From: a virus | IMG/VR virus record: IMGVR_UViG_3300042922_001437 | Coordinates: 1-39,487 of that record | Direction: 5' to 3' (one strand) | DNA: 39,487 nt | Part shown: positions 1,819-27,174 of the stretch, in pieces | Position numbering within the stretch: the stretch's first letter is position 1 | Layout of the letters: every line of letters starts with the position of its first letter | The notes under the pieces: generated by a model | Database searches by the model: none | Told to the model about the DNA's origin: nothing | What the model saw: the letters and a program-made list of their open reading frames with translations, nothing else | Position numbers and translations under genes: made by a program

Positions 1819-1855
1819 CAATATTACATGCAAAAGTGAAAATTCCAAAGGACAC
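1819..1855 (-). promoter_or_regulatory. Shared-type phage promoter P1
   Basis: The minus strand has GTGTCCTTT (1855-1847), 24 nt, then ATTG (1822-1819) within TAATATTG, one mismatch from the Bacteroidota -7 box TAnnTTTG. The ATG at 1814 follows after 4 nt, so the mRNA would be leaderless or nearly so. A GAAAGGGAAAG block lies just upstream at 1863-1873, as it also does near two other copies. Confidence 0.6.
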
Positions 1856-1886
1856 TAAATCTGAAAGGGAAAGTAAAAATAAATGA

Positions 1887-1972
1887 TGGACATTTTGGAC
1901 AAGTGGACATTCCACTGATTTTCAAAATAAAAGCCACGTCCATCTCGTAAAAATACTGTCCAAGGTTGTCCA
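1887..1972. repeat. Hexamer array A: 3 x TGGACA facing 3 x (T)GTCCA
   Basis: TGGACA occurs at 1887, 1896 and 1904 (steps 9 and 8). The inverted form occurs at 1937 (CGTCCA, one mismatch), 1957 and 1967 (steps 20 and 10). A further TGGACA at 1982 lies inside the end of the 688-aa gene. The array is upstream of promoter P1. The same arrangement recurs at 27222-27338 and 28278-28431, so it is a designed element, probably protein-binding. Confidence 0.7.
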
Positions 1973-1974
1973 TT

Positions 1975-4041
1975 TTAATACTGGACAAAAGTACCATCCA
2001 ATTGCTGAATGGAGTGTCCCATTACTTCAAATTTGTCGTGTAGAGGAGAACTATCTGAAACATAGTAATACATCAATGCATCCCTTCCCCCGTATCGATA
2101 CCAATATCTGTCTACATTACTACGTAGTATCATTACATTTGAAGACACAACATCATCACCATATGGCCCTTGTTCTCGCACTGAACCATCATCAAAATTT
2201 TTGACCTGCCTTTCAATATGGACCTGTAAATTATTGACTGAAAGAGCGGGTATTGAGGTTTGGCTATCCTGATAAAACTCTATTTTTAAATCCGCATAAG
2301 TCCTATACTGATTATTACCAGGTTTAATAACCATAATAACCTTTGCATACAACTTACCTTCCGGATCAATTGTTTCAGGAGAATTAACCACAACACGGAA
2401 GCCCGACGCAATTGCATTAAGGTCATAGTGTGGATATCCAACAATTTTTGCGAAAAGCGTTTCATTATTACGCGATGGTTCAAAAGTGACTTCATCCATC
2501 AGCAATTCAACCTTTGCTCTATTCTCCCCGGCGATGAAAAGTTTCTGTAGTGGATTGATTGCCATAAACTGGTTGATGTTCAATTTAGCCTGCAGCTCCA
2601 CCTGTTCAGAAATACAATAGAACGAATACCAGGGTAAAGAAAACTTACTGATAATTCCCTTATCACCTCCAAGCATCAGCGAATTATCGAATGTCCTATT
2701 CAGATTCCCGATATCGTCGGAAGTAGATTCCGCAATATGGACCGTACCACCTAAACCCAAAGAACCTTTGTACGATAATAGCCGCAATGCAAATGAATTT
2801 TTTCCATATTCATTATCCGCATTGTAGGCTGTTTTAGCATTCAGCGCATTACCATAGCAATTACCTGTCTGCAATTTCCGTGGGAGTCTTACACCGTCAA
2901 TATCCCAAAGCTTTAACGCCCACATAAAAGGCCGTCCGATGGTCATAGGAGCCTCTTTAAAATTTTCGGTATAACCTATGATCACGCTACCCTCATACGG
3001 AAGCACTTTATACATTTCGTCGGAATCATCCGTTTTCGTCATCAGCTTGAATGCTCCAGTCGGTTGCCGTTTTATGGTGATGCTATCCTTTATCTGCGCA
3101 TCGGTGATATCCATCCGATTGGGCTGTGACAATATGAGATTCGACTTTTCAAAATGCGCAATCTGATTCTGAGAATCAAAATAGAAAATGACCTTATGAT
3201 CATTTCTGAGTGCTTTGAAAAAATCAGAAATCGACAACGTTGGCAAGTGCTGAGCCGGATTGATCGCACCACTAGCCAGGATATCGCTTCCCTGTCTGAC
3301 CCCCGTATTGTCGATGATAATCGATTTTACAAATGGATCGTCCAGATAAGAGCCTACCGCCTTAAATCCGAGAAATGCACAAACCTCTTTAATCACCCAC
3401 GTGAGGTAGAACGATGCACCATATAGTGATAAATCTTTCACAGCATATCCATCGGAGAAATCATTGATCACCGACTTTTCGAAGTCGATACCGTCCGACC
3501 CATCATTTAAGGTTTGCAGTTCGCCAGTGGCCATGGGATTAATGTACGTAGGCATGCAGAATGGATATCCACCCACTGAATCATTAATTGTACGAATACG
3601 ATCTTTCACACTGGATCCCGATGCATCAATACGGATGGATTTGTGACTTACAAATTTACCGTTTTTAGTTTCCGTGAAAACTTGCGGAACGGTCACATCG
3701 CGTAAGAAATCCGCGACAAGGGAATTGTCAACGACGATAAACGCATCATATCCTTTGCTCGAAACATCATATTCCACGCGGCCACGCTTCCAGCTCATTC
3801 CCAAAAATGACAAATTCACATCGATCGCTTTACGTCCAAATCTATTTTCAAGAAATCGTCCATAAGAAAATGCCGCGTCGTTCTTTTCGGTAAATGGAAA
3901 AACCACCGGATAAGAATAAGAACCTTTGATGACGGTATCTTCATTAAAAGCAGAACTGACGAATTTAACCGTCAGTTTGCTATCCTGTGCCACGTCCAGT
4001 ACGACACCATTATCTGTAATTACTGCGAATGGAGCCGCCAT
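1975..4041 (-). CDS. Putative tail-tip / baseplate protein, 688 aa
   Basis: A large protein without signal peptide or transmembrane segments, opening with a beta-rich stretch (DSKLTVKFVSSAFNEDTVIKG). I know similar openings from Bacteroidota prophage proteins encoded near the tail fibre, but I cannot name a family with certainty. It starts 1 nt after the endolysin stop, so it is in the same transcript as the amidase and fibre. Position, size and beta-rich character suggest a tail-tip or baseplate component; a virion-associated accessory protein is the alternative. No enzymatic motif was seen. Confidence 0.6.
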   Translation of the reverse strand: MAAPFAVITDNGVVLDVAQDSKLTVKFVSSAFNEDTVIKGSYSYPVVFPFTEKNDAAFSYGRFLENRFGRKAIDVNLSFLGMSWKRGRVEYDVSSKGYDAFIVVDNSLVADFLRDVTVPQVFTETKNGKFVSHKSIRIDASGSSVKDRIRTINDSVGGYPFCMPTYINPMATGELQTLNDGSDGIDFEKSVINDFSDGYAVKDLSLYGASFYLTWVIKEVCAFLGFKAVGSYLDDPFVKSIIIDNTGVRQGSDILASGAINPAQHLPTLSISDFFKALRNDHKVIFYFDSQNQIAHFEKSNLILSQPNRMDITDAQIKDSITIKRQPTGAFKLMTKTDDSDEMYKVLPYEGSVIIGYTENFKEAPMTIGRPFMWALKLWDIDGVRLPRKLQTGNCYGNALNAKTAYNADNEYGKNSFALRLLSYKGSLGLGGTVHIAESTSDDIGNLNRTFDNSLMLGGDKGIISKFSLPWYSFYCISEQVELQAKLNINQFMAINPLQKLFIAGENRAKVELLMDEVTFEPSRNNETLFAKIVGYPHYDLNAIASGFRVVVNSPETIDPEGKLYAKVIMVIKPGNNQYRTYADLKIEFYQDSQTSIPALSVNNLQVHIERQVKNFDDGSVREQGPYGDDVVSSNVMILRSNVDRYWYRYGGRDALMYYYVSDSSPLHDKFEVMGHSIQQLDGTFVQY

Positions 4042-4042
4042 A

Positions 4043-4747
4043 TTATTTTAAATATTGACTTGAAACCCAACCTTTCAAACTACCTATTTGGATATACGTC
4101 CAAAAACCACTCCTCCTCAATTCATCCACATAAGTTCCTTTCGGGATTTCTTTGATAAGTTCGTGCTTAGTCCCTGGACCAACACGGACATTTAAATTTG
4201 TTGTCGTAATTCTTTTAACAATGGTGTATTCACCGAATACCGCCTGCCGCACCCTTTCCATCGGGAATTTTGGTCCCGGATCATCTTTTCGTCCGAAAGG
4301 CGTTGCTACTTCCGAATGCGCCAATATTTCTGTGATCGATGGATAAGCCGCAACCAAGGCTTTGCACACTTCGATACACTTTTGAATTTGGACTTCCGTC
4401 CAGTCTTGGTAAACTCCCTTGAACATACCCATGTTTTCCTGCTCGATCCCAATTGCATATCGGTTCAGATTAGTAAATCCATTCCATTCACTTCGACCGG
4501 CATGCCATGTAATTTGATTAAACTTAGCCATTTGGGTTACATATCCTGTTTTCGTGATATGTAAATCCGCGCTTACTCCTGAAGCTTTTTGAGTAAGCCA
4601 ATTGACTGCTGATGTTGAATTACTCGCTGCATCGAAATGAAGGAGGATAAAACGAATATCCTTAGTGCCATAGCTTACGTTTGGCGATTGACGGAACTCT
4701 ACCTGAGTCCCGTCATTATTGTATAATAAGTTGTTTTTTACTTGCAT
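4043..4747 (-). CDS. Endolysin: N-acetylmuramoyl-L-alanine amidase with SH3b domain
   Basis: A 234-aa two-domain lysin. Residues about 28-165 are an Amidase_2 (T7 lysozyme/PGRP-like) zinc amidase, with candidate zinc ligands His37 (ILLHFDA), His144 (ILAHSEVA) and Asp156 (KDDPGP), plus TWHAG (80-84) and Glu102 in the active-site region. Residues about 175-234 are a bacterial SH3 domain with NLNVRVGPGTK and a closing GWVSSQYL, expected to bind the cell wall. It should cut the MurNAc-L-Ala bond of peptidoglycan at lysis. There is no signal peptide, so release needs a holin, and none is certain nearby. Its ATG lies inside the 3' end of a 31-codon ORF that resembles a peptidoglycan-binding motif. 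Confidence 0.92.
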   Translation of the reverse strand: MQVKNNLLYNNDGTQVEFRQSPNVSYGTKDIRFILLHFDAASNSTSAVNWLTQKASGVSADLHITKTGYVTQMAKFNQITWHAGRSEWNGFTNLNRYAIGIEQENMGMFKGVYQDWTEVQIQKCIEVCKALVAAYPSITEILAHSEVATPFGRKDDPGPKFPMERVRQAVFGEYTIVKRITTTNLNVRVGPGTKHELIKEIPKGTYVDELRRSGFWTYIQIGSLKGWVSSQYLK

Positions 4748-4833: not shown

Positions 4834-4852
4834 GATTAGGATTTATTAGTTT

Positions 4853-7761: not shown

Positions 7762-9345
7762 TTAATTTTCATAAAACATTTCCTGTATATGCTGTCCTGA
7801 AATCTCGAAAGATTGAGCAAATAGGCCGTTCCCATCCTGAAATTCGTCGATATTTGATGAACTCAGATTGATTGGCCACCAAAGTCCATCGACGTACGTC
7901 AGTTTCTCTTTGCTCAGATAAAAATCACGCATAGCCTTTATTTCTGCCTTAGACTTGAAGCCGGTGTTTATCTTCTCCTTTTCCTGCGCGGTGATATCCA
8001 AATCGATATTTTCGCCATTTGCCAACACAAAATCACGAACCTGTATCACACGTGCCGAATCCTTATCAAAGTCCAACGTATTCGTTTTTTTGCCATACGT
8101 GTAGAAACTCTCATAACTTCCAAGGGAATTCTGAAAGAGAAAAAAACGCTTGTATGGGCGATATTGGTTATCTACTTGATACGTTATAGACTCAGATACC
8201 TCTTTACCGCCGGCAATCAGTGTAACTTCATACGACACGACTGAAAGCTCCGGGTACAATGAATTTGCCCCGATCTGAGGTAATCCAACCGGAATGATAA
8301 CTTTCTCAAATTTTCCAATAGATTCGTAAGTATGAGCAATGAAAGTATAATACGACCCATCATTGTATTCAAGTGCGACACTTACGTTAACATCCGATAA
8401 ATTATCACCGATATTAAACCACGAAATCCACTGAGGTTGATCGGGCGTAACCTTTTTTACGCGTGATGTCGTTAGAAAATTCACCCTATTTTCATTGGTT
8501 AAAAAGTTAAGCAATGACGTGCCTAAGAGATTCTTTGGCAATCCCCCATAAATCGTGACGAATCGCTGTGAACGAATAGATCCCCTAGCCAATTGCGGCT
8601 CCCCATACAATTCAGTCACCTGGAGAAAATAAGAACGGATCACTTTTCCTTTTGCAAATGCCACGTCGTATAGCAATGGCCTGTCCGTACCGTTTTCAAG
8701 TAAAAAAGAACTTAATGGTTTTGAGAAATCCCAAAAAGCTTTTCCACTTAAATCAGGAGCAAGTGCAGCAGCCACCACACTCCGCTCATTCCCTTCGAGA
8801 TCAAAAGAGAAGAGTTCTACAAATAATTTCAGGTTCGGCGTATAAAAGATATCAATAGCTGTTTGCGTGATTGTTAATTCAGGCTGATCGGCATGATCAG
8901 AATAAAAACTCACCGTCAACGAGCTATCATTTTTTTTTGATGTGAAAACCAATGTTTGATTTTCTACAACAACATTGAATAAAGAGCCCAAATTATACGC
9001 TTCCAACAATGCTAGCCTTACCCTTCCCAACCACTCTATTTTTGTCTCCCCTGGCCCCTTTCGATGTGGAATTCTATACTTATCGACTGGATTGCCGTAT
9101 TCACATGAAATATAAAGTGTAGAGCCTTTAATGGTTAGCTGAAATTCCCAATCCAAATAGATATAATAATTACCTTCAGGACTTGCCAAAATCTCGTAAT
9201 ACTGATTTTCACAGGGTGAGAAGTCCAGTATAAAAACTAGTGGCCGTCCAGGATCCTGAACTACCTGATCGGTAGAAAATTCGAATAAAATCGGATTTCG
9301 TGACCATGTGATATTATCCGGTTGCCGTGTAATCTGAATTGCCAT
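7762..9345 (-). CDS. Putative distal tail / tail-hub protein, 527 aa
   Basis: A 527-aa soluble, beta-rich protein immediately downstream of the tape measure gene, the usual place of the distal tail protein or hub in siphophages. The N-terminus (AIQITRQPDNITWSRNPILFEF) and Ig-like strands in the first 250 residues fit a structural role; no enzymatic motif is seen. The start is fixed by the shared-type promoter P2, whose TTTG ends 4 nt before the ATG. It begins the tail-tip unit (distal tail, BppU-like, fibre, endolysin, 688-aa protein). Confidence 0.6.
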   Translation of the reverse strand: MAIQITRQPDNITWSRNPILFEFSTDQVVQDPGRPLVFILDFSPCENQYYEILASPEGNYYIYLDWEFQLTIKGSTLYISCEYGNPVDKYRIPHRKGPGETKIEWLGRVRLALLEAYNLGSLFNVVVENQTLVFTSKKNDSSLTVSFYSDHADQPELTITQTAIDIFYTPNLKLFVELFSFDLEGNERSVVAAALAPDLSGKAFWDFSKPLSSFLLENGTDRPLLYDVAFAKGKVIRSYFLQVTELYGEPQLARGSIRSQRFVTIYGGLPKNLLGTSLLNFLTNENRVNFLTTSRVKKVTPDQPQWISWFNIGDNLSDVNVSVALEYNDGSYYTFIAHTYESIGKFEKVIIPVGLPQIGANSLYPELSVVSYEVTLIAGGKEVSESITYQVDNQYRPYKRFFLFQNSLGSYESFYTYGKKTNTLDFDKDSARVIQVRDFVLANGENIDLDITAQEKEKINTGFKSKAEIKAMRDFYLSKEKLTYVDGLWWPINLSSSNIDEFQDGNGLFAQSFEISGQHIQEMFYEN

Positions 9346-9349: not shown

Positions 9350-9386
9350 CAAAAATGCCCTTCCGCCTATAAAAGGGAAAGGACAC
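9350..9386 (-). promoter_or_regulatory. Shared-type phage promoter P2 (tail-tip operon)
   Basis: GTGTCCTTT (9386-9378), 24 nt, TTTG (9353-9350, within CATTTTTG), then 4 nt to the ATG at 9345. It lies in the 58-bp gap after the tape measure gene. An imperfect CCCTT/AAGGG hairpin between the boxes is followed by CATTTTTG, so it might also slow readthrough from the tape measure gene. Confidence 0.65.
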
Positions 9387-9403: not shown

Positions 9404-12400
9404 CTAAGAATCCACACTATTTTCGATACTGACAATCTTCTGATTATGCTCCTGTGTCAAGTGATAATTTTGCACCACTTCAATTTTGGAAATCCGATCA
9501 TCCACGTAACCTTTCATGATTTTTGCAAATTGCTCATAACTCATTTGCTCACCTGCAGTGTAGTTTACAACGGGTGGCGGCACCACAACATTTCCACCCG
9601 ATCCACGTCGGCTCGCTTCCTCAGCGACAATGGCATCGGAATTTATACCAATGGATGCTCCATTCTTGCGCTGGCTTGCATAAATTAGTGCATCCACCAC
9701 ATCCTTATTATTGGCATAGGTGGCGCGTGATAAAATAGGTTCTCCACCTTCAATATTGGCAATGAGTTTATTCCTACGATCCACGATATCCAGTCCCCCC
9801 TGAGTGTGCGATGGTCCGTCTGGAATAAATCCACCTTTGGCAAATTGAGGAGGTTTTTGAGCAGCAATCACGCCTGTTTGCAATAGACCAGCGGCGGCGG
9901 CTGCTGCCATGGCAAATGGATTAGGGATAACCTTTGTGACAGCCAAAGCCGTGTTAATGATCGATTGAATGATTGAAGCTTTTTGATCCGCTTTCCATGC
10001 TTTCAATTTCTCTGCTTTTACCTGCTTATCATACTTATCGTTAATCGATTTTTTCTGATTCTCGGTCAAGTTTTTATTTGAAAGTTCCCTTTCCCGTTGC
10101 TTGTCTATGTTGGACAGAACAGCATCTAACTCAGACTGTCGATTGTTTGCCCCGATCGCAAAAATTGCATCTGCAGTTGATTGGGCGATATCCAATAAAG
10201 CACTTTTTTTCTCTTTTTGCTTTTCTAATTCGACGTTATCTTCTAAAACTTTATATTTTGCAAGTAGAGCAGCTTCAGCCTCTTTGAATTCTTCAGTGGC
10301 AAGAAGCTCTGCGCCAAATTTAGCTTTTAGTGCCTCCAGTTCATTTGTATGAGCGATCCTTATCTTTTCAAGTTGCTTTTCTCGTCTAGTAGATGTTGAT
10401 TTTTCAGTTTCATCATTAATGCGCTTAGTTTCATCCTTAATACGTTCCTTTTCCCTTATTTCAGCATCTGCCAGTGCTTTCAGTCGCTCTTCTTCTATTT
10501 TTGCTTGCACATTTGCATCAGATGACGCATTCTTTTTCAGCTCATTATAAAACTTGTTAATGTTTGCTTTCTCCTTTTCCAATTCAGTAGCATGTTTGTT
10601 GGAAAGGCTGGTATTGAGTTCCTCAATTTTTTCATTTGTCTCGGTAGCCTGCTTAACTTTTAATGCAGAAACCGCCGATTCGCGTTCCACCTCCAGTAGA
10701 GCAATACGCCCAGCTGCATCGCTATAATCTTTATCTTTTAAAAGCTGTTCCTCATTCTTTGTTTTAAGTATTTCAGAACGCTTATCCTGAAATTCTTCCC
10801 ACTGATCAATTTGTTTTTGATATTTATCGCTCTCGGCTTGTAACTCTTTGTCATTTTGAGATAGCGATTCTAACAATTGAGTAGCCCCGAAATCCTCAGA
10901 CGCTTTGATTAGTTTTTTATACATTTCATTGGCCTGATCGATTTGTTTTTCCGCGTCAGATTTGCCTTTTTTATCATCACCTTTTAAAACATTCCCTCCT
11001 GTTTGCGTATTGTTGACAGACTTCTCCGGCTTATAATAAGGATTCTGATTTTTAAAAAAATCGGGAGTAAATTTTTGGAGCAATTTTATTTGATCAGGAG
11101 ATAAATTCAAACCATCATTCGATTTTCGCTGTGCAATTTCAATTTGCTTCATAATCAATGATGAAATTTTAGATTGCCTTTTTTCGATTGAATTAGCAAT
11201 GTCATTTTGATTCATCCCAACATTGAATAATTTTCCGAACCAATTTTTTGTACCATCACCATTAACCCCTATGTCGGAAAATTTACCAACAAACGTTCTT
11301 CTGGAATTTAATGCGTTATCCTGAATTTTATTTAATTGATCCAATTGCCTTTGTGCCTCATCATATTCCTGATCTGCAGTAATACCTGATTCTAAATGCA
11401 TGGATTTTACGAGTTCCTTTTGCGCTTTAGAGAACTTCTCAACTTTACCTCTATTGATATCTATAGCTTCACCATAAGTATTGAATTCAGTTACCGCGGT
11501 AGGAACCAACTTCGCTAACTTATCAATTACAGATCGAAGCTCCTCCTGCTCCTCCTTGTTTCTTGTTGTCAAACTTTTAAGCTCATCATATCTTTTTATA
11601 AGTGGCTTAGACTCTCTTTCAAGGACATTTTGTTTGTCATTCAAAATACTCCATTCATTAGACAAATTTCTACTTTCAGAATATGTACCCAACATTTTGG
11701 CAGTTATATCCGTAAACCATTGTCTTGCGGAACCATTTTGCCACAAATCGGACATACGATTAGACAACTTCTCTAAATTCGCACCAAGTGTACTATTCAC
11801 TGTATTGAATTCATTTAAAACACTAGTACCTTCCACTAGTGCAGTTTTAGAATCCTCTTGACGGCGTCTCACTAAATCAATATTTTCAGCCATAGAATTT
11901 AATGCCTGAATACCACGAGCACCGGAAACTTCAAGAACTCCCATATTCTTTGCCATAACCTCCAGTCCGCCACCCGCACTTTTTGCTTTGTCCAATACTC
12001 TAAGAAGTGCTTCATTGGCATCATTTTTCAATAAGGCACTAAATTCCTTTACAGACATGCCAGCTACTTTTGCGTATTTCGGGATATCGGCACCTATACC
12101 AACAATAAATTGTCCAATTGCTGTAGATGATGATTCCATAGATTGTCCCATCTCATCCATAACTGCCGCAATACCTAATACTTGATCAATAGTCATCCCA
12201 GCTGCAGGAGCAACCCCGGCCATTCGATTAGCAAAATCAACGAGGTTTTTTTCAGCTGCTGTACCAGTAGCTCCCAAAGTATTAATAGCCGATCCCACTT
12301 TATTCAGTGCCTCCTCAATACCAAATGTATCTTTCAGCTTAAAGATATCCGTCAATTTACCCAGGGAATTAATAGCTTCTTCCGTTCCGCCCAAGTCTTC

Positions 12401-12970
12401 ACCGAGTGCGACACCGATACGATCTGCAGCACGGACAAAACCTTCTACATCTTTCTCAGCAGATATACCCAACTTTCCCGCTACCTCGGCCAATCCCAAT
12501 AATTCGGAATTGGCAGTACGAGTATTCATTTTTTTAAACTTATCATTCAATCGGTCTACAGCTTCCTCCGTAAGACCTGTAGTCTTTTGCACACGTGCAT
12601 ACGAGTCGGATAACTCTGCGTTTTTAGAAACTAAAGTTTTTACCCCATTGACTGCAGCGTACGCTAGACCTGCCATTGAAAGGCCCCCAATCGCATTAGA
12701 GGCCATATCCTTCAATTCATCTTTAAATGATCGGGCTTCTGTTGTGGCTCCATTCAATTCCTTTCGGATATTCCCCCAGGCAGCAGCAACCTTTTTAAGC
12801 TCCTCTGCCTTTTTCCGATAAGCCACCGGGTCATCCTCCTCTTTCATTTTCTTCAATTCAGCCCGAAGCTTTCTGAAAGTATCTTCTAATTCCTTACCCG
12901 ATGTTTTTGCCTGCTTACCATCTAAGACCAGTTTAATTACTGCTTCTGTATCTGTTCTTTGCTTTGCCAT
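9404..12970 (-). CDS. Tail tape measure protein, 1188 aa
   Basis: The longest gene of the window, coding for the ruler that sets tail length and helps DNA entry. Residues about 10-80 are basic and helical. About 95-420 match the TP901-type tape-measure core (YARVQKTTGLTEEAVDRLNDK, GLAEVAGKLGISAEKDVEGFV, GIAAVMDEMGQSMESSS). Residues about 430-1000 are long charged coiled coil rich in E, K and Q. A hydrophobic Ala-rich stretch follows near 1045-1070 (NPFAMAAAAAAGLLQTGVIA), with a glycine-rich C-terminal part. By the usual about 0.15 nm per residue, the tail would be near 180 nm long, i.e. a siphovirus; this is an estimate. The start is fixed by promoter P3, 4 nt upstream. Confidence 0.92.
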   Translation of the reverse strand: MAKQRTDTEAVIKLVLDGKQAKTSGKELEDTFRKLRAELKKMKEEDDPVAYRKKAEELKKVAAAWGNIRKELNGATTEARSFKDELKDMASNAIGGLSMAGLAYAAVNGVKTLVSKNAELSDSYARVQKTTGLTEEAVDRLNDKFKKMNTRTANSELLGLAEVAGKLGISAEKDVEGFVRAADRIGVALGEDLGGTEEAINSLGKLTDIFKLKDTFGIEEALNKVGSAINTLGATGTAAEKNLVDFANRMAGVAPAAGMTIDQVLGIAAVMDEMGQSMESSSTAIGQFIVGIGADIPKYAKVAGMSVKEFSALLKNDANEALLRVLDKAKSAGGGLEVMAKNMGVLEVSGARGIQALNSMAENIDLVRRRQEDSKTALVEGTSVLNEFNTVNSTLGANLEKLSNRMSDLWQNGSARQWFTDITAKMLGTYSESRNLSNEWSILNDKQNVLERESKPLIKRYDELKSLTTRNKEEQEELRSVIDKLAKLVPTAVTEFNTYGEAIDINRGKVEKFSKAQKELVKSMHLESGITADQEYDEAQRQLDQLNKIQDNALNSRRTFVGKFSDIGVNGDGTKNWFGKLFNVGMNQNDIANSIEKRQSKISSLIMKQIEIAQRKSNDGLNLSPDQIKLLQKFTPDFFKNQNPYYKPEKSVNNTQTGGNVLKGDDKKGKSDAEKQIDQANEMYKKLIKASEDFGATQLLESLSQNDKELQAESDKYQKQIDQWEEFQDKRSEILKTKNEEQLLKDKDYSDAAGRIALLEVERESAVSALKVKQATETNEKIEELNTSLSNKHATELEKEKANINKFYNELKKNASSDANVQAKIEEERLKALADAEIREKERIKDETKRINDETEKSTSTRREKQLEKIRIAHTNELEALKAKFGAELLATEEFKEAEAALLAKYKVLEDNVELEKQKEKKSALLDIAQSTADAIFAIGANNRQSELDAVLSNIDKQRERELSNKNLTENQKKSINDKYDKQVKAEKLKAWKADQKASIIQSIINTALAVTKVIPNPFAMAAAAAAGLLQTGVIAAQKPPQFAKGGFIPDGPSHTQGGLDIVDRRNKLIANIEGGEPILSRATYANNKDVVDALIYASQRKNGASIGINSDAIVAEEASRRGSGGNVVVPPPVVNYTAGEQMSYEQFAKIMKGYVDDRISKIEVVQNYHLTQEHNQKIVSIENSVDS

Positions 12971-12974: not shown

Positions 12975-13011
12975 CAAAAATGTCCTTTCCGATTAGCGCC
13001 GGAAAGGACAT
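12975..13011 (-). promoter_or_regulatory. Shared-type phage promoter P3, inside a perfect palindrome
   Basis: ATGTCCTTT (13011-13003), 24 nt, TTTG (12978-12975), then 4 nt to the tape measure ATG. Here the upstream box is one arm of a perfect 11-bp inverted repeat, ATGTCCTTTCC / GGAAAGGACAT (12980-12990 and 13001-13011 on the plus strand). On the minus strand the second arm runs straight into TTTTTG, so the same DNA also looks like an intrinsic terminator. Confidence 0.65.
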
Positions 13012-15416: not shown

Positions 15417-15568
15417 AACGAATCCAGTTGTATTAAATCATTCTTTAATTCACCTACCGACTGGAATTTTCGGAATTCCGAACTCCAAGTTTTTTCCAGT
15501 GGTTTTTCTTCGATAGGTTTTGCCCCGACAAAAAGGAGCATTACCATACAGATAAAAATTTTTTCCAT
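15395..15568 (-). CDS. 57-aa protein with signal peptide, overlapping both neighbours
   Basis: ATG at 15568 to TAA at 15395 encodes 57 aa. Residues 1-16 are a hydrophobic signal or membrane segment (MEKIFICMVMLLFVGA), followed by a charged domain (KPIEEKPLEKTWSSEF...) ending ...CGKLSE. It starts in a TGATG overlap with the upstream gene stop and ends 22 nt inside the spanin-like gene, in another frame. That coupling and the signal peptide support a real gene. Nested small exported proteins are typical of spanin loci, but it has no lipobox, so its part in lysis is only suggested. Confidence 0.6.
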   Translation of the reverse strand: MEKIFICMVMLLFVGAKPIEEKPLEKTWSSEFRKFQSVGELKNDLIQLDSLCGKLSE

Positions 15569-15909
15569 CATTCCATGCTTTTAAGTTTTTCACTCAGTTT
15601 ATGCACAAGTGGTTTAATCTGACCACGCAGCGTATCAAGCGTTGCGTTGCTGCTATCGGCTTTTTCCTTTATTTCTCTGAAAGCCGGGTCATACCGTTCC
15701 AATAACTTTTTATAAATCTCAGCCTCCGTCTTGCCCGACAATCTGATCTCCTTTGAAATCTGTCCATTGAGATTCTGATTTTCGATATAGAGATATATTA
15801 TTGCTGCGATCAGAGTAACCTGAATGGCCGCTTTACCCTTCGTATCAAATAGGCCGACTACATCCGAAAATACCTTTGCGATCCATCCAAATTTTTGTTC
15901 CATGTTCAA
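15568..15909 (-). CDS. Single-span membrane protein with coiled-coil C-terminus (i-spanin- or holin-like)
   Basis: 113 aa: an N-terminal cytoplasmic part (1-26), one transmembrane helix at about 28-43 (AIQVTLIAAIIYLYI), then a charged helical, coiled-coil-like region to the C-terminus. This is the plan of inner-membrane spanins (Rz-like), and also of some single-pass holins or tail-associated membrane proteins. It is followed by two further exported small proteins, giving a compact membrane-protein cluster 11 kb from the endolysin. It is 33 bp from the adaptor gene and coupled to the next ORF by TGATG. ATG at codon 3 is an alternative start. Confidence 0.6.
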   Translation of the reverse strand: MNMEQKFGWIAKVFSDVVGLFDTKGKAAIQVTLIAAIIYLYIENQNLNGQISKEIRLSGKTEAEIYKKLLERYDPAFREIKEKADSSNATLDTLRGQIKPLVHKLSEKLKSME

Positions 15910-15942
15910 ATCAACTAATTATAAATCATGCCCGAAATGACA

Positions 15943-17115: not shown

Positions 17116-18459
17116 TTAATTTATAACCTCTTTACTTGTTTTCCCTTTATCCAAGGTTTCCAATTCAACCTCTATAAATTTGAATTCTAAGCGCGGATAT
17201 TTTGCTTTCCAACCGTTGTATTCAGCAATGAAATAGAGCGGTTCCAACAATAGCTCACGATGAGGATTGAGCAAAGCGACCTTCGCGTTAAAAGCTACGC
17301 GCTTATCCGATCCACTACCCGAACCCATATTTTTACCCGGGCTATCTCCGACCAATGTCGGATCCAAATCTAAAGAGCGCATAAGATGCTGTGATGCTTC
17401 TCGGCTATCTTCTAAGTTCTCACCGCCCTGTACAGCTTTTTCAACAGGTATGATCTTCCATCCAGGTATTTCTTTACCTGTTTGCTGATCGTATCCAACT
17501 TCTGTTAAAATAGTCCGTCCATCAGCTTCCGGTCCTGTAAGCTTATCATTGATCTCTTTTACTTTAGCTTTCTTAATAGCCTGTTGTTCCTCGAAAGTAA
17601 GTTTAGCCCAATCTTTATAAGCGGTTGGCCAATATGAAAATGGAATTTGCAAGATATATTTAGCAGAAAGAACCTGCTTCATCATTGCAGTCTTGCTCTT
17701 TGGAACCATGCGAGATATCTCCGCCCAGGTAGATGTAATGAATCCGTTCCAGTGGGCTAGTTGATAGTATATTTTCCCAGGGGACGGCGACGAAACTGGA
17801 TAGATATATCGAGGTGTATTTGAACTTTTTACAGTTTCAACCTTTGTAAAATCATAAGGATCGATGACATCAATCTTTGTAGTTTCTTTATCAGCCGCTT
17901 TTGCATCCGGGAAATTGGCATTGACATAACAATACTTGACCTTACCTTTGTCATCCATCTTTTGCCAACGGCAAAACGAGGCATCTTGCGTACCAATGTA
18001 AGCTATGCTGTTACCATCTTTGGACTTAATCAGTTCAGGGAATATATTGGCAAACCAAACAAAATCCGTGGCAGCTTCATAAAAATATCTTTTGGTCGTG
18101 GTATCGGTCAGAAACATATCGATATCATCATCTTGGATATCACGATATTGATATTTCTTTTTTTCAGTATCAAAATAGCGCTCCATAGCCACAACACCTT
18201 TTCCTATCAGCAAGCGCGCCTTCCAATCCAACATTGTCGGAATCTCGGTAGATAGCTCGGCCATTTCAATCACTTGCTGAGGGAAATTGTTATCTTCACC
18301 CCACATAGCGATATCACTACCTCCATTGGAATCTTTTATTTTCGGGTCAACTGGCTTTACTTTCAGCTCCCCAATATTTAATACCTCGCCGATATCAACT
18401 ATTAGGTTGCCATTTCCGACCAGCGCTAAATTTTCACTTATAAATTTGGGCTTACTCAT
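17116..18459 (-). CDS. Putative portal protein
   Basis: 447 aa with portal-like organisation: an N-terminal wing region, a long central segment with a helical stretch near 270-320, and a C-terminal SGSGSDKRVAFNAKVALLNP (about 388-407) followed by ELLLEPLYFIAEYNGW, as in portals of Bacteroidota siphophages. It would form the dodecameric ring through which DNA enters and leaves. It lies downstream of the large terminase in the usual order, overlaps the upstream 102-aa ORF by 1 nt, and lies between the terminase and the adaptor. The assignment rests on order and motif memory; no catalytic residues exist to check. Confidence 0.7.
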   Translation of the reverse strand: MSKPKFISENLALVGNGNLIVDIGEVLNIGELKVKPVDPKIKDSNGGSDIAMWGEDNNFPQQVIEMAELSTEIPTMLDWKARLLIGKGVVAMERYFDTEKKKYQYRDIQDDDIDMFLTDTTTKRYFYEAATDFVWFANIFPELIKSKDGNSIAYIGTQDASFCRWQKMDDKGKVKYCYVNANFPDAKAADKETTKIDVIDPYDFTKVETVKSSNTPRYIYPVSSPSPGKIYYQLAHWNGFITSTWAEISRMVPKSKTAMMKQVLSAKYILQIPFSYWPTAYKDWAKLTFEEQQAIKKAKVKEINDKLTGPEADGRTILTEVGYDQQTGKEIPGWKIIPVEKAVQGGENLEDSREASQHLMRSLDLDPTLVGDSPGKNMGSGSGSDKRVAFNAKVALLNPHRELLLEPLYFIAEYNGWKAKYPRLEFKFIEVELETLDKGKTSKEVIN

Positions 18460-18767
18460 TATTGAACCACCTCCATGCCGTTAAATTTTAATACCAAATG
18501 CGAATGAATTTTGACCAGACGATCACTATTTAAATGCCGAATGTTACGCGTATGATTTTCGTAATGATTCGGATTTCTTGCCTTATCTTTCCTAGATGGA
18601 CCACCTACAAAAAAAGCTGAATCAAAGTGGATCAGTTTACCCCCTTGATGCTTTTTCTGATCACAGGTAACGAACGATATGGAGAAAGGAATCAAATCCC
18701 GATCCCGACCTCGCATCATCATAGTATTGAGCATGTCTTTTATTGAAATAGTTACATTTTCACGCAT
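18459..18767 (-). CDS. Hypothetical ~102-aa phage protein upstream of the portal
   Basis: A basic protein with KARNPNHYENHTRNIRHLNS (about 60-80) followed by VKIHSHLVLKFNG. I have seen similar short proteins before portals in Bacteroidota prophages; the function is unknown. The open frame extends to a TTG at 18773, but the ATG at 18767 is preferred because the TTTG of promoter P4 ends 3 nt before it. It overlaps the portal start by 1 nt. It opens a transcription unit separated from terL by a terminator. Confidence 0.6.
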   Translation of the reverse strand: MRENVTISIKDMLNTMMMRGRDRDLIPFSISFVTCDQKKHQGGKLIHFDSAFFVGGPSRKDKARNPNHYENHTRNIRHLNSDRLVKIHSHLVLKFNGMEVVQ

Positions 18768-18770: not shown

Positions 18771-18807
18771 CAAAATTCATGGTTCCTGCTCGCGCGCGAA
18801 AGGACAC
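18771..18807 (-). promoter_or_regulatory. Shared-type phage promoter P4 (portal operon)
   Basis: GTGTCCTTT (18807-18799), 24 nt, TTTG (18774-18771), then 3 nt to the ATG at 18767. A GAAAGGGAAAG block lies upstream at 18812-18822. Between the boxes is an odd GCGCGCG run. Confidence 0.6.
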
Positions 18808-19007: not shown

Positions 19008-20648
19008 CTAGCCGATGATGAGGTCACCGACCTGCTCAACGTAGCCGTATTGTGTCTTGAACTTGCCAATGTATAAGGTATCAAAGGCATCACTGAGGTG
19101 TGGTGCCTCCTCTTGTTTGACCGAACTATTGGACTCTGGCCGCTTATCCTTCTCGGTACCGTTCTTTCCCGATCGTGTCTGCACCTGTTGCATGGAAGTA
19201 AGCAGCGCATCACAGTTCTCTCGGTTGAAACGTACAGGCTTAAACTTGCTATCATTCTCTTTGAATACAGCTTCGAATAGCCTGAACCTAGTTTCATGCA
19301 TAGGCTGCTGACCGATATCAAAGCGGTTAACTGCCCAATCATTCTTTATTAATCGAGCCGTCACCATATCAGATAGCGTTTCCAAGCGTGTCGCATCCGT
19401 CACCTTGGCCGTGTTATCGTAGAAGTAATTGACCGTATGATTGTTGTGATGTTTATAGTATTTACAGAAATCATCAACTAAATCATCCAATACCTTTTCC
19501 TGCTCACGCTTCACATACATAGACTTAAGCACGCGATAGAACCGTTCTGTTTCCTGGCCGATAACCAATGACTTGATCGATGAATTATAATCGAATGAGA
19601 TATCTATCGGCATCCCCTTGATCAGGTCACCATCATTACGGCAATCCTTAACCAGTCCTTCCGGTAGGTATAAGCCCATCGATTCGATGTAAGAATAATC
19701 ATACAAGGAATAACAATGGTGATCCGTATCCAGTAGATGATAGAACCCATTCGTTACAGCGATGACGTTCTCATTCAGGATAGCCGCACGGAATACAGGC
19801 CACAGCATTTCCCTTCTCCATTGCTTAATCGTATCAACACCCAATATCTCCAGGTTATCCAATGACGATGCCTCAGAGTAATATACTGTATTGGCTCGTA
19901 AGGCATTCAGAATACGAACATATTCATTACGTTTGCGACGATAATACCTTTTGCTTTCAGTCGTTTCAGCCAAATAGAATTGCTGTTCAAGACGTTGTAC
20001 TTCCAATTGGAAGTTGACAATTTGAGCAATCTTCTTGGTGTCCATTAAATCTTTCTTATCCAGTATCCATTTAGCTTTCGGATCGGTAGGCATATCCGTG
20101 CACATGGTGACCATGTGATGCTCAGGACGTGACCCGAATATTTCGCGGTTACCCCGATTGATCGGTGCGATATCATCCATGTAACGCTTATGATTGAGAA
20201 AACGAACCTCATCACCAGCAATCGCATCCACTGTTTTTCCGTTGGCCGATCCAGGACGGTCCTGTGAGATTAGATGAAACGCATGTCCATTCCACCAAAA
20301 TATCGTATGCTCCGGATGTAACACTGGATAAATTGCATCAGGTATTTTATATTCCTTTGGCGGCCGCCTACGTACCCAATAATGCAGCCCTTCGTAGTAG
20401 CCAAAGTTTTCCCATGCCTTCATCAATGGCGGTAATGTACGATCGAGCAATTGCATGTAAGTAAGGCCAACTAACCCAGTAGCACCACGAGGCATAGCAT
20501 TAGCCGCCTGAATGGTTCGATAAGCCAATGGCCCCTGCGTTTTGCCGGTACCACGCCCCCAAACATCGAACTCCTCTTTGCACATCGTCAAAATAGATCG
20601 TTGCTGAGGTTTATTAAAATACATGACTTTTTCCCTATACTTCTCCAT
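19008..20648 (-). CDS. terL: Terminase large subunit
   Basis: The packaging motor ATPase and nuclease. From the chosen ATG (about 546 aa) the Walker A is GRGTGKT at residues 31-37 and the Walker B is IAGDE with Asp146-Glu147. The C-terminal RNase H-like nuclease is marked by PIDISFDYNSS, with candidate metal ligands Asp349 and Asp353. The open frame runs 18 codons further up to 20702 in Trp/Lys-rich sequence that overlaps the preceding gene, so the ATG at 20648 (14-nt overlap), or the one at 20624, is more likely. It follows the putative small subunit as usual and is ended by a terminator, unlike many phages where the portal follows directly. Confidence 0.93.
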   Translation of the reverse strand: MEKYREKVMYFNKPQQRSILTMCKEEFDVWGRGTGKTQGPLAYRTIQAANAMPRGATGLVGLTYMQLLDRTLPPLMKAWENFGYYEGLHYWVRRRPPKEYKIPDAIYPVLHPEHTIFWWNGHAFHLISQDRPGSANGKTVDAIAGDEVRFLNHKRYMDDIAPINRGNREIFGSRPEHHMVTMCTDMPTDPKAKWILDKKDLMDTKKIAQIVNFQLEVQRLEQQFYLAETTESKRYYRRKRNEYVRILNALRANTVYYSEASSLDNLEILGVDTIKQWRREMLWPVFRAAILNENVIAVTNGFYHLLDTDHHCYSLYDYSYIESMGLYLPEGLVKDCRNDGDLIKGMPIDISFDYNSSIKSLVIGQETERFYRVLKSMYVKREQEKVLDDLVDDFCKYYKHHNNHTVNYFYDNTAKVTDATRLETLSDMVTARLIKNDWAVNRFDIGQQPMHETRFRLFEAVFKENDSKFKPVRFNRENCDALLTSMQQVQTRSGKNGTEKDKRPESNSSVKQEEAPHLSDAFDTLYIGKFKTQYGYVEQVGDLIIG

Positions 20649-21327
20649 CTTCCAAATCTTCATAGTCCACGTCCACGGCTTCATCTTCCAACATTCGATC
20701 AATAGATGAAGATTTACCTTTTAATTCTTTCAATAGATCAGCTTTAACGGCATCTAGATTTTCTATTTTTTCAAATCCTAGATTGGACGCATCCGGTTCA
20801 ATAACTGGCTTGATCGGCGTGAATTCCTTATAGTCTGGAATATCGTGGTCTTTTTCATGCAGCCCTTTTACCTTGCTCAATTCTTTGTAAAATGCAGATG
20901 CCGCCCGAAAGTCCCCAGCACCATGGGCTTCCATCATCATCCTTTCGCCCCAATAGATATGCATACCGCGTGCATAGTCTTTATCCTCTTTAGATTCAAA
21001 TGTTTTAAAAAACTGCTGCGACATTTGGATGTCTATGTACGCCTGAGCCTGCGAAACTCCGAAGCGAGCCATGATCCAGTGAGCCAGTTCCAATTTTTGA
21101 TAAGGTCGGTTTATCCTGTGTATTTCTACTTCCAGTTGAAGCTCATAATCAAACTTCGTGATCTTTTGGACAAACCCTGTTCGTACCTGCGCATCTACCT
21201 CTCGAATGCGTTCATAAACGCGCTGATCAGTTTCCGAAAGGGAATCAATCTTATTCGCTAGAAAAGCTCTGAAAATACGATCCATGATCGTATCACCTTT
21301 AATATGCTTTGGTCTTAGTTCACCCAT
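20635..21327 (-). CDS. terS: Putative terminase small subunit
   Basis: 230 aa with an N-terminal helical region and an HTH-like segment at about 88-100 (ARFGVSQAQAYIDIQ), then a helical middle and a very acidic C-terminus (DEAVDVDYEDLEDGEV). DNA-recognition helix, central oligomerisation helices and acidic tail, next to terL, fit a small terminase. The stop overlaps the terL start by 14 nt and the start shares one base with the upstream gene stop. It would recognise the packaging site. The family is not confirmed; a different DNA-binding packaging factor is possible. Confidence 0.6.
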   Translation of the reverse strand: MGELRPKHIKGDTIMDRIFRAFLANKIDSLSETDQRVYERIREVDAQVRTGFVQKITKFDYELQLEVEIHRINRPYQKLELAHWIMARFGVSQAQAYIDIQMSQQFFKTFESKEDKDYARGMHIYWGERMMMEAHGAGDFRAASAFYKELSKVKGLHEKDHDIPDYKEFTPIKPVIEPDASNLGFEKIENLDAVKADLLKELKGKSSSIDRMLEDEAVDVDYEDLEDGEV

Positions 21328-21947
21328 TACAATTCCACTCCTTTCCGCTCAGCTATCAGCTGAGCAATGCGTGCTTTCTTCTCACGAAGCTTTTGTTCAG
21401 ACTTCGCTTTATTGCGCAATTGATCATCGGGCTTTTGTAAACGCTTTTCCATTTTATTCACCTGGACATACAAACGTTGCAGCTCCGGAGTAACAAAAAC
21501 TGTCTGTTTAGTAACGATCTCCGGCAGTTCGCCATATTCCTCAAAGTGATCGATCTTTTCGAATATCGTACGTTTACGTTCCACTAACTTTAAAATCTGA
21601 ATGGCATATTCCAATCGAGTTTTATCGGTTTTACATCGCGCTAACGCAAATCGATTCGAATCAATCTGACGGTATACCTGTTGCAGATCATACTTAAGCT
21701 TTTTTACAATGTAGGAGTTGTCGAACTTCTTTTGTTCAATTTGATTGACGGATGGTTTTATCTCTGCCTCCGGTTCCGGCTCCGGATGATCACTGGAAAA
21801 CTTTCGCAATTCATCCTCCAGTTTTTTGACTGTATATTCAGACTTGCTTTGGAACAAGTCTTTTAAGAATTGATTTGTCGATAGTGTGTTGAATATTTCT
21901 ACACCCTGCCAATAATCTTTATTTTCAAACCATTTATGCAATTCCAT
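21327..21947 (-). CDS. Hypothetical 206-aa coiled-coil protein, first gene of the terminase operon
   Basis: 206 aa, charged and helical, with coiled-coil-like segments at about 75-130 and 165-200 and a PEPEPEAE linker (about 55-63). Not recognised. It is coupled to the putative terS by a one-base overlap and may help DNA recognition or packaging. The start is supported by promoter P5, whose TTTA ends 4 nt upstream. Confidence 0.6.
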   Translation of the reverse strand: MELHKWFENKDYWQGVEIFNTLSTNQFLKDLFQSKSEYTVKKLEDELRKFSSDHPEPEPEAEIKPSVNQIEQKKFDNSYIVKKLKYDLQQVYRQIDSNRFALARCKTDKTRLEYAIQILKLVERKRTIFEKIDHFEEYGELPEIVTKQTVFVTPELQRLYVQVNKMEKRLQKPDDQLRNKAKSEQKLREKKARIAQLIAERKGVEL

Positions 21948-21951: not shown

Positions 21952-21988
21952 TAAAAGTGCGAAAGGGAAAGTATCAGAGAAAGGACAT
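21952..21988 (-). promoter_or_regulatory. Shared-type phage promoter P5 (terminase operon)
   Basis: ATGTCCTTT (21988-21980), 24 nt, TTTA (21955-21952; one mismatch to TTTG), then 4 nt to the ATG at 21947. A GAAAGGGAAAG block lies between the boxes (21961-21971). The outer end abuts the plus-strand -7 box of the divergent island gene. Confidence 0.55.
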
Positions 21989-22670: not shown

Positions 22671-22674
22671 CACC

Positions 22675-22772: not shown

Positions 22773-22787
22773 TATTTAACCGGAGGG

Positions 22788-23045: not shown

Positions 23046-23115
23046 AGTAAAAAAATAAGTTGGAAAAATGAGGAATATTAAATAATAATAGGATGACAAT
23101 AATTATTCAATTACA

Positions 23116-23143: not shown

Positions 23144-23345
23144 CTTTATCCGAACTTTGAGCCTTTTTAGGCTTTATTTTTTGCAAATACCTGGTACCTG
23201 CAGTATACAATGCATTAGCTTTCTCTAAGGAAATATAACGAAAATCAACACGTCCAATTTTGGATTCCAAAATTGGCGAACTCGTATTCACCACCTCGTA
23301 GTGATCTACGATTGCAGGCGATACCTGCCAATTTAGTTTCGCCAT
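23127..23345 (-). CDS. Hypothetical 72-aa phage protein
   Basis: A small protein with FRYISLEKANALYTAGTRYL (about 36-55) and a lysine/serine-rich C-terminal tail. It shares one base with the stop of the upstream 185-aa gene. Not recognised; the operon position suggests a small structural or assembly protein. Confidence 0.6.
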   Translation of the reverse strand: MAKLNWQVSPAIVDHYEVVNTSSPILESKIGRVDFRYISLEKANALYTAGTRYLQKIKPKKAQSSDKESPSQ

Positions 23346-23902
23346 TATGGTGCCGGAACTGGAAGTTCACTATCGTAACGGTAGAAAGGAGATGCCCCAT
23401 ACCATCCAAATGTAACCTTAATACCCTTTTCTCCAGTTGGACCAGTACCAAAGTTCATGTCGATATTTTCGACATCGACCATGATATCCTCATTACCTGC
23501 CTGCCAAAATCCGGGACCACCTTCAGCACCTTTAAATAGCAAAATACCAGTTTGATTTTTAACGATTTTAACGGTACCAACATTATGAGCCCCGATAAAT
23601 GGAATAAAGGCTTCAATAGTGCCTTTGGAAATTTTGGATTTCTTTTCACCCTCCAATGTTGAATTCGCTCCCGACTTTTCATAAAGCAAAGTCATTTCAA
23701 TTGGAGCTTTACCAGCTTTCAGAACGTGTGGATCAGAAATAGTGACCAAAGAAGCTGCAGTTGTTCCACCAGCTGCAGGTGCCGCAATAGACGCGAAATA
23801 GTTTTCGGGAATCCAATAAATTTTACGAGATATACCGGCAGGATTCTCACATCCATCGGCATAGGCCAATTTCATATCTGTAATAGTTTCGAAACAAGAC
23901 AT
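23345..23902 (-). CDS. Candidate major tail tube protein
   Basis: 185 aa, beta-rich, with an N-terminal CENPAGISRKIYWIPENYFA (about 18-37) and Gly/Ala-rich loops (APAAGGTTAAS). The C-terminal half (VENIDMNFGTGPTGEKGIKV, then FGWYG) has the look of tail-tube or decoration proteins of Bacteroidota siphophages. It is two genes after the major capsid gene, where a decoration protein would also be expected. Both are possible; tube is favoured because no other tube candidate is near the tape measure gene. No membrane segment or enzymatic motif. Confidence 0.5.
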   Translation of the reverse strand: MSCFETITDMKLAYADGCENPAGISRKIYWIPENYFASIAAPAAGGTTAASLVTISDPHVLKAGKAPIEMTLLYEKSGANSTLEGEKKSKISKGTIEAFIPFIGAHNVGTVKIVKNQTGILLFKGAEGGPGFWQAGNEDIMVDVENIDMNFGTGPTGEKGIKVTFGWYGASPFYRYDSELPVPAP

Positions 23903-23920
23903 AATTCAATAATTTAAAAT

Positions 23921-24244: not shown

Positions 24245-24297
24245 TGTAACGCTTTTTTAGATTAGAAAATAGGGACCGGATATCCGATCCCATTTAA

Positions 24298-25536: not shown

Positions 25537-25563
25537 TTTATATAAATTAATAATATTTACAAA

Positions 25564-26640
25564 TTAGACTTTACCATAAATGGCTTCATACTCAGCATCC
25601 ACTGAGGTACTAAAATCATCTACCTCTTGTTGTGTGCCTGTTCCAGGGGTATCATTCTTATCCGTCACCGGAACAACTGGCTGCTCAGCAGGTTTAGACC
25701 CCAGATCTTTCACTTGCTTTTCAAGTTCAGAAATACGGGCATCTTTTTGAGTGACCGAATTTTCAAGGTCGGTAACCTTTGTTTTCAAACCAGTGTTTTC
25801 AGTGGATGCATTTTCCAACCCTTCCAAATAGGAATCCGACACAACCGTTACACCTTCAACACCTGCTTTTTGAATTTGCTCATTAACAGCCTCGAACAAT
25901 TCATTCGTTCTATCATTCACAGCCACTTTGGCCAATTCCGATAATTTTGAGTACTTATTAAACATATTATTTTGATTTTCTGAATTATTAGTTTCGATCT
26001 TGTTTATCTTACCTTGGAACCAAGCGGCAACCTGACCGTAAGACATATTTTTAACATTTTCTGGAGTTTCTTCCGCTTCGTAATCTTCAATAACATCAAT
26101 CAGTCCCTCCGCCAAAGCTTCTGCTGGAGTGTAATAATGATCTTCTCCATCAAAGTACTTAGCTTTAACCTGTTCCAATGACAACCCTAAACGATCAACT
26201 AAGAAACTGGCTAAGATATCATCGTATTTTTCGAGATCTTCTGCTGTTTTCTTCAAGGATTTTGAGTTACCGTAACCGTAGACAGATGCACTGTGAAACA
26301 TCAATAAGGAACCTTTTGCAACGTGTGCATTGCCTTTTTTAGCTGCTGCCATTAGTATTGCCGCCATAGAAAACTCAATACCATCACCGTAAAGATGAAT
26401 ATGATCGTAAAGAGGTGATGATTTAATCGCATTCGCAATAGGCAATCCTTCCCAAACTGAACCACCAGGGCTGTTCACATGTATATCGATCCGCGAACAC
26501 GTGCTTTCCAACGCATTAAATACGGCTAAAAAATCAGCTGCATTAACGTCACCCCAATAAGGACCAATGTCACCGTAAATTTTAAGCTTTCCTACTCCAG
26601 TTGTACCGGAAGCTAATACCTGGAAATATCTTTGTTTCAT
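25564..26640 (-). CDS. Prohead protease (ClpP/S14-like) fused to a scaffold-like domain
   Basis: 358 aa. Residues about 15-190 are a ClpP-type serine protease: the oxyanion/substrate strand has HVNSPGGSVWEG (54-65), the nucleophile is Ser91 in GIEFSMAAILMAAA, the base is His116 in SLLMFHSAS, and the acid is probably Asp167 before TPAEALAEGLID. Residues about 225-315 are a coiled-coil scaffold (KVTDLENSVTQKDARISELEK), then a Pro/Thr-rich linker and an acidic C-terminus. The protease would cut scaffold and capsid N-termini during maturation. Met226 begins a possible separate scaffold product. It precedes the major capsid gene, as usual. Confidence 0.88.
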   Translation of the reverse strand: MKQRYFQVLASGTTGVGKLKIYGDIGPYWGDVNAADFLAVFNALESTCSRIDIHVNSPGGSVWEGLPIANAIKSSPLYDHIHLYGDGIEFSMAAILMAAAKKGNAHVAKGSLLMFHSASVYGYGNSKSLKKTAEDLEKYDDILASFLVDRLGLSLEQVKAKYFDGEDHYYTPAEALAEGLIDVIEDYEAEETPENVKNMSYGQVAAWFQGKINKIETNNSENQNNMFNKYSKLSELAKVAVNDRTNELFEAVNEQIQKAGVEGVTVVSDSYLEGLENASTENTGLKTKVTDLENSVTQKDARISELEKQVKDLGSKPAEQPVVPVTDKNDTPGTGTQQEVDDFSTSVDAEYEAIYGKV

Positions 26641-26671
26641 ATTCTATTTGCTAAAACCAAACTTTAGTACC

Positions 26672-26708
26672 CAAATATCCATTTAGAAAAAAGCCTTTGA
26701 AAGGACAC
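26672..26708 (-). promoter_or_regulatory. Shared-type phage promoter P7 (protease-capsid operon)
   Basis: GTGTCCTTT (26708-26700), 24 nt, TTTG (26675-26672, in ATATTTG). Unlike the other six, the start codon is 31 nt downstream, giving a normal leader. The upstream box touches the stop codon of the previous gene, so this promoter lies within the head region. Confidence 0.6.
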
Positions 26709-27133
26709 TAAAGCGCCCTATCAATTTGCGTGACTGAATATTTAAACTCATTCCCTGCCATATCCGAAGGTTTTGCACCGCGCTCCCCTGACCGTGACAC
26801 CAATACCGGAGTATCGAGGGTACCAATGATTGTTTTGATACCATTCAAATCAGTGACCCGAATAATGGAGCACTGGCCGATGTAGCGAGCAAATGAAATT
26901 TCGTCTTTTTTTGATGGGAAATGCCGTTTGAAAGTTCCGGCATAAGTGTAGGTAATACCCTGGTCGGTTTCATTTTCATCATCTCTGAATTGACCAGATT
27001 GCGGAAGATGGGCAATAACTTCCCAATGCTTTCCATTTTTTAACCGTAAAGGATTGACCGATATCAGGTCATCAATATGGCAAAACTCAAAACGAGCTAC
27101 GCCACCAATATTTTCACCGCTATGCAATTTCAT
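26708..27133 (-). CDS. Hypothetical 141-aa protein, first gene of the leftward structural region
   Basis: 141 aa, beta-rich, with conserved-looking IGGVARFEFCHIDDLISV (9-26) and TYTYAGTFKRHFPSKKDE; no signal peptide or membrane segment. Not recognised. It is the first structural-region gene and carries its own shared-type promoter (P6) ending 4 nt before the ATG, with hexamer array B further upstream. It may be a head protein; the family is unknown to me. Confidence 0.6.
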   Translation of the reverse strand: MKLHSGENIGGVARFEFCHIDDLISVNPLRLKNGKHWEVIAHLPQSGQFRDDENETDQGITYTYAGTFKRHFPSKKDEISFARYIGQCSIIRVTDLNGIKTIIGTLDTPVLVSRSGERGAKPSDMAGNEFKYSVTQIDRAL

Positions 27134-27137
27134 ATTG

Positions 27138-27174
27138 CAAAGGGATGCATGTCTAGGATTTTAGGAAAGGACTA
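27138..27174 (-). promoter_or_regulatory. Shared-type phage promoter P6 (start of the head region)
   Basis: TAGTCCTTT (27174-27166; the first bases differ from GTGTCCTTT), 24 nt, TTTG (27141-27138), then 4 nt to the ATG at 27133. It is followed upstream by hexamer array B (27222-27338). Confidence 0.6.

Follow-up and report, generated by a model that had tools for sequence, protein, structure and literature searches.

A TGTC box at fixed distance from a host-type -7 box precedes late genes of Bacteroidota temperate phages and is linked to a candidate activator family

Late genes and spaced sites in the window

The window, i.e. the whole stretch of DNA analysed here, is the IMG/VR virus record IMGVR_UViG_3300042922_001437, positions 1 to 39,487 (39,487 nucleotides). 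Its late genes include the following:

25564..26640, minus strand: head maturation protease gene (phrog_2976, 4.6e-45), in a late operon
19008..20702, minus strand: terminase large subunit (TerL) gene (tblastn matches in features with that annotation), in a late operon
17116..18459, minus strand: portal protein gene (phrog_11226, 5e-05; in 24 of 25 phages), in a late operon
9404..12970, minus strand: tape measure protein gene (phrog_25337, 2.2e-55)

The late genes 23345-23902 and 26708-27133 fall into the same protein family cluster, which comprises 33 proteins in 19 contigs and is represented several times per phage. In addition, the ORFs 29345-29743 and 29701-30072, which overlap in different frames, apparently encode a DNA methyltransferase in two parts, possibly because of a frameshift.

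The original prediction described seven occurrences of GTCCTTT followed after 24 nt by TTTG, with ATTG and TTTA once each, and all seven are present on the minus strand. GTCCTTT starts at 1853, 9384, 13009, 18805, 21986, 26706 and 27172, but the ranges first given for the sites include 2 nt ahead of it. Five of the seven are exact, whereas the site at 1853 ends in ATTG and that at 21986 in TTTA. A mismatch-tolerant scan found an eighth, weaker site, GTCATTT-N24-TTTG at 15941. The sites, which we regard as putative late promoters, are listed below, with the distance to the ATG counted from the last base of TTTG or its variant:

1819..1854, minus strand: putative late promoter 1, TGTCCTTT-N24-ATTG, ATG (1814) of the 99-aa gene 1515-1814 4 nt on; PWM score 20.2
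9350..9385, minus strand: putative late promoter 2, TGTCCTTT-N24-TTTG, ATG of 7762-9345 (527 aa, tail-tip region) 4 nt on; PWM score 26.1
12975..13010, minus strand: putative late promoter 3, TGTCCTTT-N24-TTTG, ATG of the tape measure gene 9404-12970 4 nt on; PWM score 26.1
15907..15942, minus strand: eighth site, weaker, TGTCATTT-N24-TTTG, ATG of 15568-15903 3 nt on; PWM score 10.9
18771..18806, minus strand: putative late promoter 4, TGTCCTTT-N24-TTTG, ATG of 18459-18767 (102 aa) 3 nt on, then the portal gene; PWM score 25.2
21952..21987, minus strand: putative late promoter 5, TGTCCTTT-N24-TTTA, ATG of 21327-21947 (206 aa) 4 nt on, then a probable small terminase gene and TerL; PWM score 20.9
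26672..26707, minus strand: putative late promoter 6, TGTCCTTT-N24-TTTG, ATG of the head maturation protease gene 25564-26640 31 nt on; PWM score 23.8
27138..27173, minus strand: putative late promoter 7, closest to the candidate activator gene, AGTCCTTT-N24-TTTG, ATG of 26708-27133 4 nt on; PWM score 16.9

The sites do lie before structural operon heads, as had been claimed, but those at 18805 and 21986 precede the 102-aa and the 206-aa gene, and the portal and terminase genes follow only after these. In simulated strands that keep the trinucleotide statistics of the window strand, exact spaced matches number 0.03 on average (maximum 1) against five observed, and matches with at most one mismatch number 0.71 (maximum 3) against eight observed in the window; none of the exact sites occurs on the plus strand. 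The excess over shuffled sequence expected by the original prediction is thus seen.

Profile and geometry of the element

A profile of 94 sites from 24 phage contigs (23 IMG/VR scan records and the window) shows a wider element, TGTCCTTT-N19-[Y]AnnTTTG, in which an upstream box at about -40 to -33 is combined with the -7 box of the host sigma-A. T stands ahead of GTCC in 88 of the 94 sites. The identification of TTTG with the Bacteroidota -7 box, TAnnTTTG, agrees with an A three bases ahead of TTTG in 85 sites, a position outside the selection pattern (the A is also present in six of the seven window sites), and with a T at the first position of this box in 43. The TTTG that host promoters carry near -33 (PMC7366714) is lacking, also from the variants TGTCACAA and TGTCTTAA described below: G comes right after GTCCTTT in only 4 of 94 sites, and TTT rarely completes the host motif. 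The idea that TGTCC replaces the -33 TTTG therefore holds for the replacement itself and is refined as to place, since the box spans about -40 to -33, the TTT of its common form falls where the sigma-A TTTG would start, 19 bp from the -7 box, and the G is selected against. Unlike the sigma-ABfr promoters of Bacteroidota (TTTG at -33, TAnnTTTG at -7), with which it shares the -7 box, the element has an upstream TGTC[N4] box and no -33 TTTG, its spacing is rigid, it is restricted to phages, and its transcripts would often be leaderless.

The TAnnTTTG box of sigma-A promoters sits at -12 to -5 (PMC9723704), which gives the upstream box its position and makes the fifth base past TTTG the predicted +1. 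This base is an A in 60 of the 94 sites, with a pyrimidine ahead of it. In 35 of 95 sites it is also the first base of the ATG (4 nt past TTTG), and the distance is 3 nt in four sites and 5 nt in six; the contigs behind these 95 sites were partly picked via one near-ATG site each. In the protein-first set described below, to which no ATG selection was applied, the distance is 4 nt in 9 of 40 sites, 3 nt in three and 5 nt in one, and the other sites have their ATGs at varied distances between 8 and 37 nt. Since by the published geometry transcription would often start at the ATG itself, late mRNAs should in many cases be leaderless or carry very short leaders, as judged from predicted starts; about two thirds of the sites would give short leaders, not leaderless mRNAs. 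Leaderless mRNAs make up 3.7-5.5% in host species (PMC7366714, PMC9723704), so that the late mRNAs of these phages, if the reading is true, would largely be of a kind that is rare in the phylum. Natural phage messages could then serve to test leaderless translation in bacteria that do not use Shine-Dalgarno sequences. A terminator-like hairpin precedes many sites; the mean folding energy of the 44 nt upstream is -10.1 kcal/mol, and that of shuffled sequences is -5.9.

The element stands right at start codons, and operator-like TGTCCA arrays also occur in the window; both would suit a repressor operator, or an RNA-level element that governs leaderless translation. However, the box lies upstream of the transcript if the -7 box sets +1, and the conserved -7 A, together with a box-TTTG distance that is fixed while the ATG distance varies, fits a promoter best. 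We consider the operator or RNA-level explanation extremely improbable.

Distribution among phages and variant boxes

A pattern scan of IMG/VR with TGTCCTTT-N24-TTTG-N{3,5}-ATG returned at least 120 stretches; among the matches listed, 75 sites had N4, 29 had N3 and 17 had N5. The whole records behind 49 of these stretches hold one to seven copies of the TGTCC form each, on one strand only in 48 of 49, and the reversed pattern gave 0 matches in the same 49 viral records. The spacing control TGTCCTTT-N25-TTTG-N4-ATG gave 116 stretches with a single match in each one listed, suggesting that lone IMG/VR matches are partly background; our conclusions are based on multi-copy contigs and the protein-first set. 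For the latter, the candidate protein introduced below served alone as the query. The 32 loci obtained (563 kb), some of them near-identical, contain GTCCTTT-N24-TTTG 42 times in sense and 0 times in antisense orientation (40 unique sites), against one sense and four antisense matches for 12 other spacings. Where a locus lacks an exact copy, a near match is mostly present, usually AGTCCTTT combined with a weaker -7 box some 550 nt past the gene; the scan of these loci found no near match to the element in L182 and L183. Chance origin was rejected from the simulated strands, the protein-first counts and the spacing control. With about 94 sites in 24 contigs and the one-sided protein-first result, the recurrence in related phages is as the original prediction anticipated.

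A count over 396 Bacteroidota genomes showed no enrichment of the motif, which had about 103 matches where the reversed control had about 205 (hand count); a host regulon was rejected because the motif is at or below this control. The candidate protein family is present in 5 of the 396 genomes. The same element is found on the late strand of diverse Bacteroidota temperate phages, including Leef_1, Ingeline_1, P. gingivalis phages, and gut and metagenome phages, and is common to dozens of relatives from gut, mouth and sea. Among the phage records that share the terminase, Leef_1, Ingeline_1, P. gingivalis phage018a and Mea-Yong924-1 have 4-5 TGTCCTTT or AGTCCTTT sites each. The last of these (L222; MZ447863.1, 'Microcystis phage Mea-Yong924-1') has putative late promoters of Bacteroidota type, a terminase akin to those of Bacteroidota phages and the candidate activator, and its recorded host, Microcystis, may be wrong.

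Other phages carry variant boxes. The G226 prophage has six TGTCCTATT sites, and the G373 and G124 prophages have two CGTCCTATT sites each; in these three the spacing is unchanged and the -7 box is degenerate in some sites. Phage laban6-1 has TGTCACAA in five sites at identical offset and a relative of the candidate protein at 4e-14, and phage 1H has TGTCTTAA with the spacing shorter by 1 nt. The protein family is found in Leef_1, Ingeline_1, phage018a, Mea-Yong924-1, laban6-1 and 1H alike (E 8.7e-31 to 1.2e-5 before they joined the model), and the variant boxes occur beside diverged homologues of the candidate. TGTC is constant, and the bases after it vary together and are uniform within a phage, which is expected of a phage-encoded reader. 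The phage-specific factor that the original prediction had called for is supported as the best reading by the absence from hosts, the variant boxes of individual phages and the candidate gene.

The first putative late promoter, on the side of the candidate activator gene, often has AGTCCTTT instead of TGTCCTTT and often an imperfect -7 box (window 27138-27173, L173, L174, L175, L176, L179, L180, L185, L204, L205 and L223), as if it were systematically weaker.

A candidate activator gene at the early/late junction

Clustering of the genes on the contigs revealed a late module common to them and, outside it, a single widespread candidate, hereafter REG:

27633..28175, minus strand: candidate late activator gene (REG, 180 aa), the last gene ahead of the first late promoter, with a predicted C-terminal helix-turn-helix
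28202..28209, minus strand: host-type -7 box TATATTTG upstream of REG, with the ATG 26 nt further and no TGTC box

REG itself thus looks sigma-A transcribed. By iterative profiles, REG is present in 25 of 25 near-complete phages and is the only such window gene outside the late module, as the other five of the six window gene families found in all 25 lie inside it. For comparison, the integrase is found in 20 of these phages, the CI-like repressor in 15, the LuxR-like gene in 13 and the primase in 10. In profile searches, all contigs spanning the early/late junction proved to have REG (in G010 at the contig end), and its position is just ahead of the head genes; the contigs without REG are short late-region fragments. 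A 242-aa gene (35412-36140) with weak matches to Q-antiterminator PHROGs was set aside as a late regulator, being present in 1 of 25 phages.

AlphaFold2 modelled REG with confidence (pLDDT 85, pTM 0.76). In the model, alpha and beta structure is mixed in the N-terminal half, and a helix pair (111-125 and 134-154) with a turn between follows towards the C-terminus; R143, in the second of these helices, is invariant in 34 aligned sequences. This helix pair is probably a DNA-binding helix-turn-helix. The 18 candidate proteins taken together are without conserved stretches for an alignment search, and subgroups were used. The fold search gave no PDB match and a sole strong viral match, the Leef_1 homologue; therefore, the proposed DNA binding rests on the predicted helix-turn-helix. 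Searches of Pfam, PHROGs and NCBIfam returned no fitting family (scattered single-member matches, best E 0.0045), and PDB sequences gave nothing beyond noise. Matches to histone H2B, none of them better than E 0.03, were disregarded.

Rigid spacing and a distinct upstream box are typical of promoters read as a whole by an alternative sigma factor, here of phage or host origin. However, the -7 box is the consensus of the primary sigma-A (PMC9723704, PMC7366714), and the motif shows no excess in host genomes. Moreover, the N-terminal half of REG is predicted to be mixed alpha/beta, unlike sigma region 2, domains of sigma regions 2 and 4 were not found in REG, and no sigma family rose above noise (one at E 0.053). 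An alternative sigma factor is therefore very unlikely.

Instead, it is likely that the sites are late promoters of a temperate siphophage, composed of a host -7 box and a phage TGTC box and activated by REG. The sequences themselves show the element with its spacing, strand, multiplicity, phage restriction, between-phage variation and linkage to the REG family; its promoter nature, its activation and REG as the activator are inferred. The -7 box (yAnnTTTG) would be read by the host primary sigma factor, and the TGTC-type box, at fixed spacing around -40 to -33, would stand in for the host -33 TTTG. REG, expressed from its own host-type promoter where the early region ends, would bind this box via the predicted C-terminal helix-turn-helix and touch RNA polymerase or sigma-A region 4. 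It would thereby switch on separate late operons, the host sigma-A RNA polymerase using promoters without a normal -33 box, and initiation on or just before the ATG would leave many late mRNAs leaderless or with very short leaders.

REG is the leading candidate for the reader of the box because of the variants uniform within a phage, the absence from hosts, and its universality outside the late module. However, the late module to which REG is linked is also common to the phages, and co-occurrence alone is no proof of box reading. The box of such late promoters might be read by another phage protein, such as the small-terminase-like 20635-21327 or the LuxR-like early regulator, with REG only travelling with the late module; five other families are likewise found in 25 of 25 phages, and LuxR-type regulators occur in several annotated relatives. 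We regard this as unlikely, since the other universal families are late-module genes that are themselves downstream of the promoters, and the LuxR-like family (38144-38716) is found in only 13 of 25.

In T4 middle promoters, which depend on sigma appropriation by MotA/AsiA, the downstream box of the host is kept and its upstream sigma box gives way to one of the phage, as proposed here. The present element differs in its box and position and in serving late rather than middle genes; REG has no PDB sequence or fold match, and no homology to MotA was seen in either search. In Mu C, P2 Ogr and staphylococcal Ltr/RinA, one small protein of the phage acts at a number of separate late promoters, and REG, lying ahead of the late region with several late operons as targets, has the position of this activator class. 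This is described for Mu C (PMC4461284) and Ltr (PMC13123087). Unlike in these systems, the box lies at -40 to -33 without an obvious dyad, the sigma factor is that of Bacteroidota, and no family relation is detectable. Late antitermination of the lambda Q type likewise has its regulator gene at the early/late boundary, and some of our elements follow terminators, but here many dispersed promoters take the place of one that is read through, and a box is tied to each -7 box.

The original prediction knew no description of the element, and none was found in open PMC papers, nor was any work on how these Bacteroidota phages control their late genes. Additions to the prediction are the eighth site, the conserved -7 A, the leaderless arrangement, the candidate activator and the spread across phage families. 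With somewhat more reserve, we also think it probable that these phages are a large group of Bacteroidota temperate phages, not described before, that share one transcription system. In this system, a new activator family would take over the host primary sigma at TGTC boxes of fixed spacing, with specificity diversified between lineages (CCTTT, CCTATT, CACAA, CTTAA) and largely leaderless late mRNAs. The promoter consensus is usable for annotating late operons in gut, oral and marine phages, and a candidate activator can now be named for 'hypothetical protein' genes of cultured phages and prophages (Leef1_39, Ingeline1_41, laban61_gp042, and DBA55438.1 of P. gingivalis phage018a). The natural pairs of box and protein would offer different specificities, and an inducible expression tool for Bacteroides is possible.

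In addition, the window has three clusters (1887-1972, 27222-27338 and 28278-28431) in which TGGACA occurs three times and then TGTCCA two to three times with a period of about 10 nt, forming inverted arrays. One lies on either side of the candidate activator gene and one ahead of the 99-aa gene. TGTCC, which is common to the arrays and the late box, is also clustered in the close relatives L166-L169. The arrays look like operators of another regulator, or of the candidate activator.
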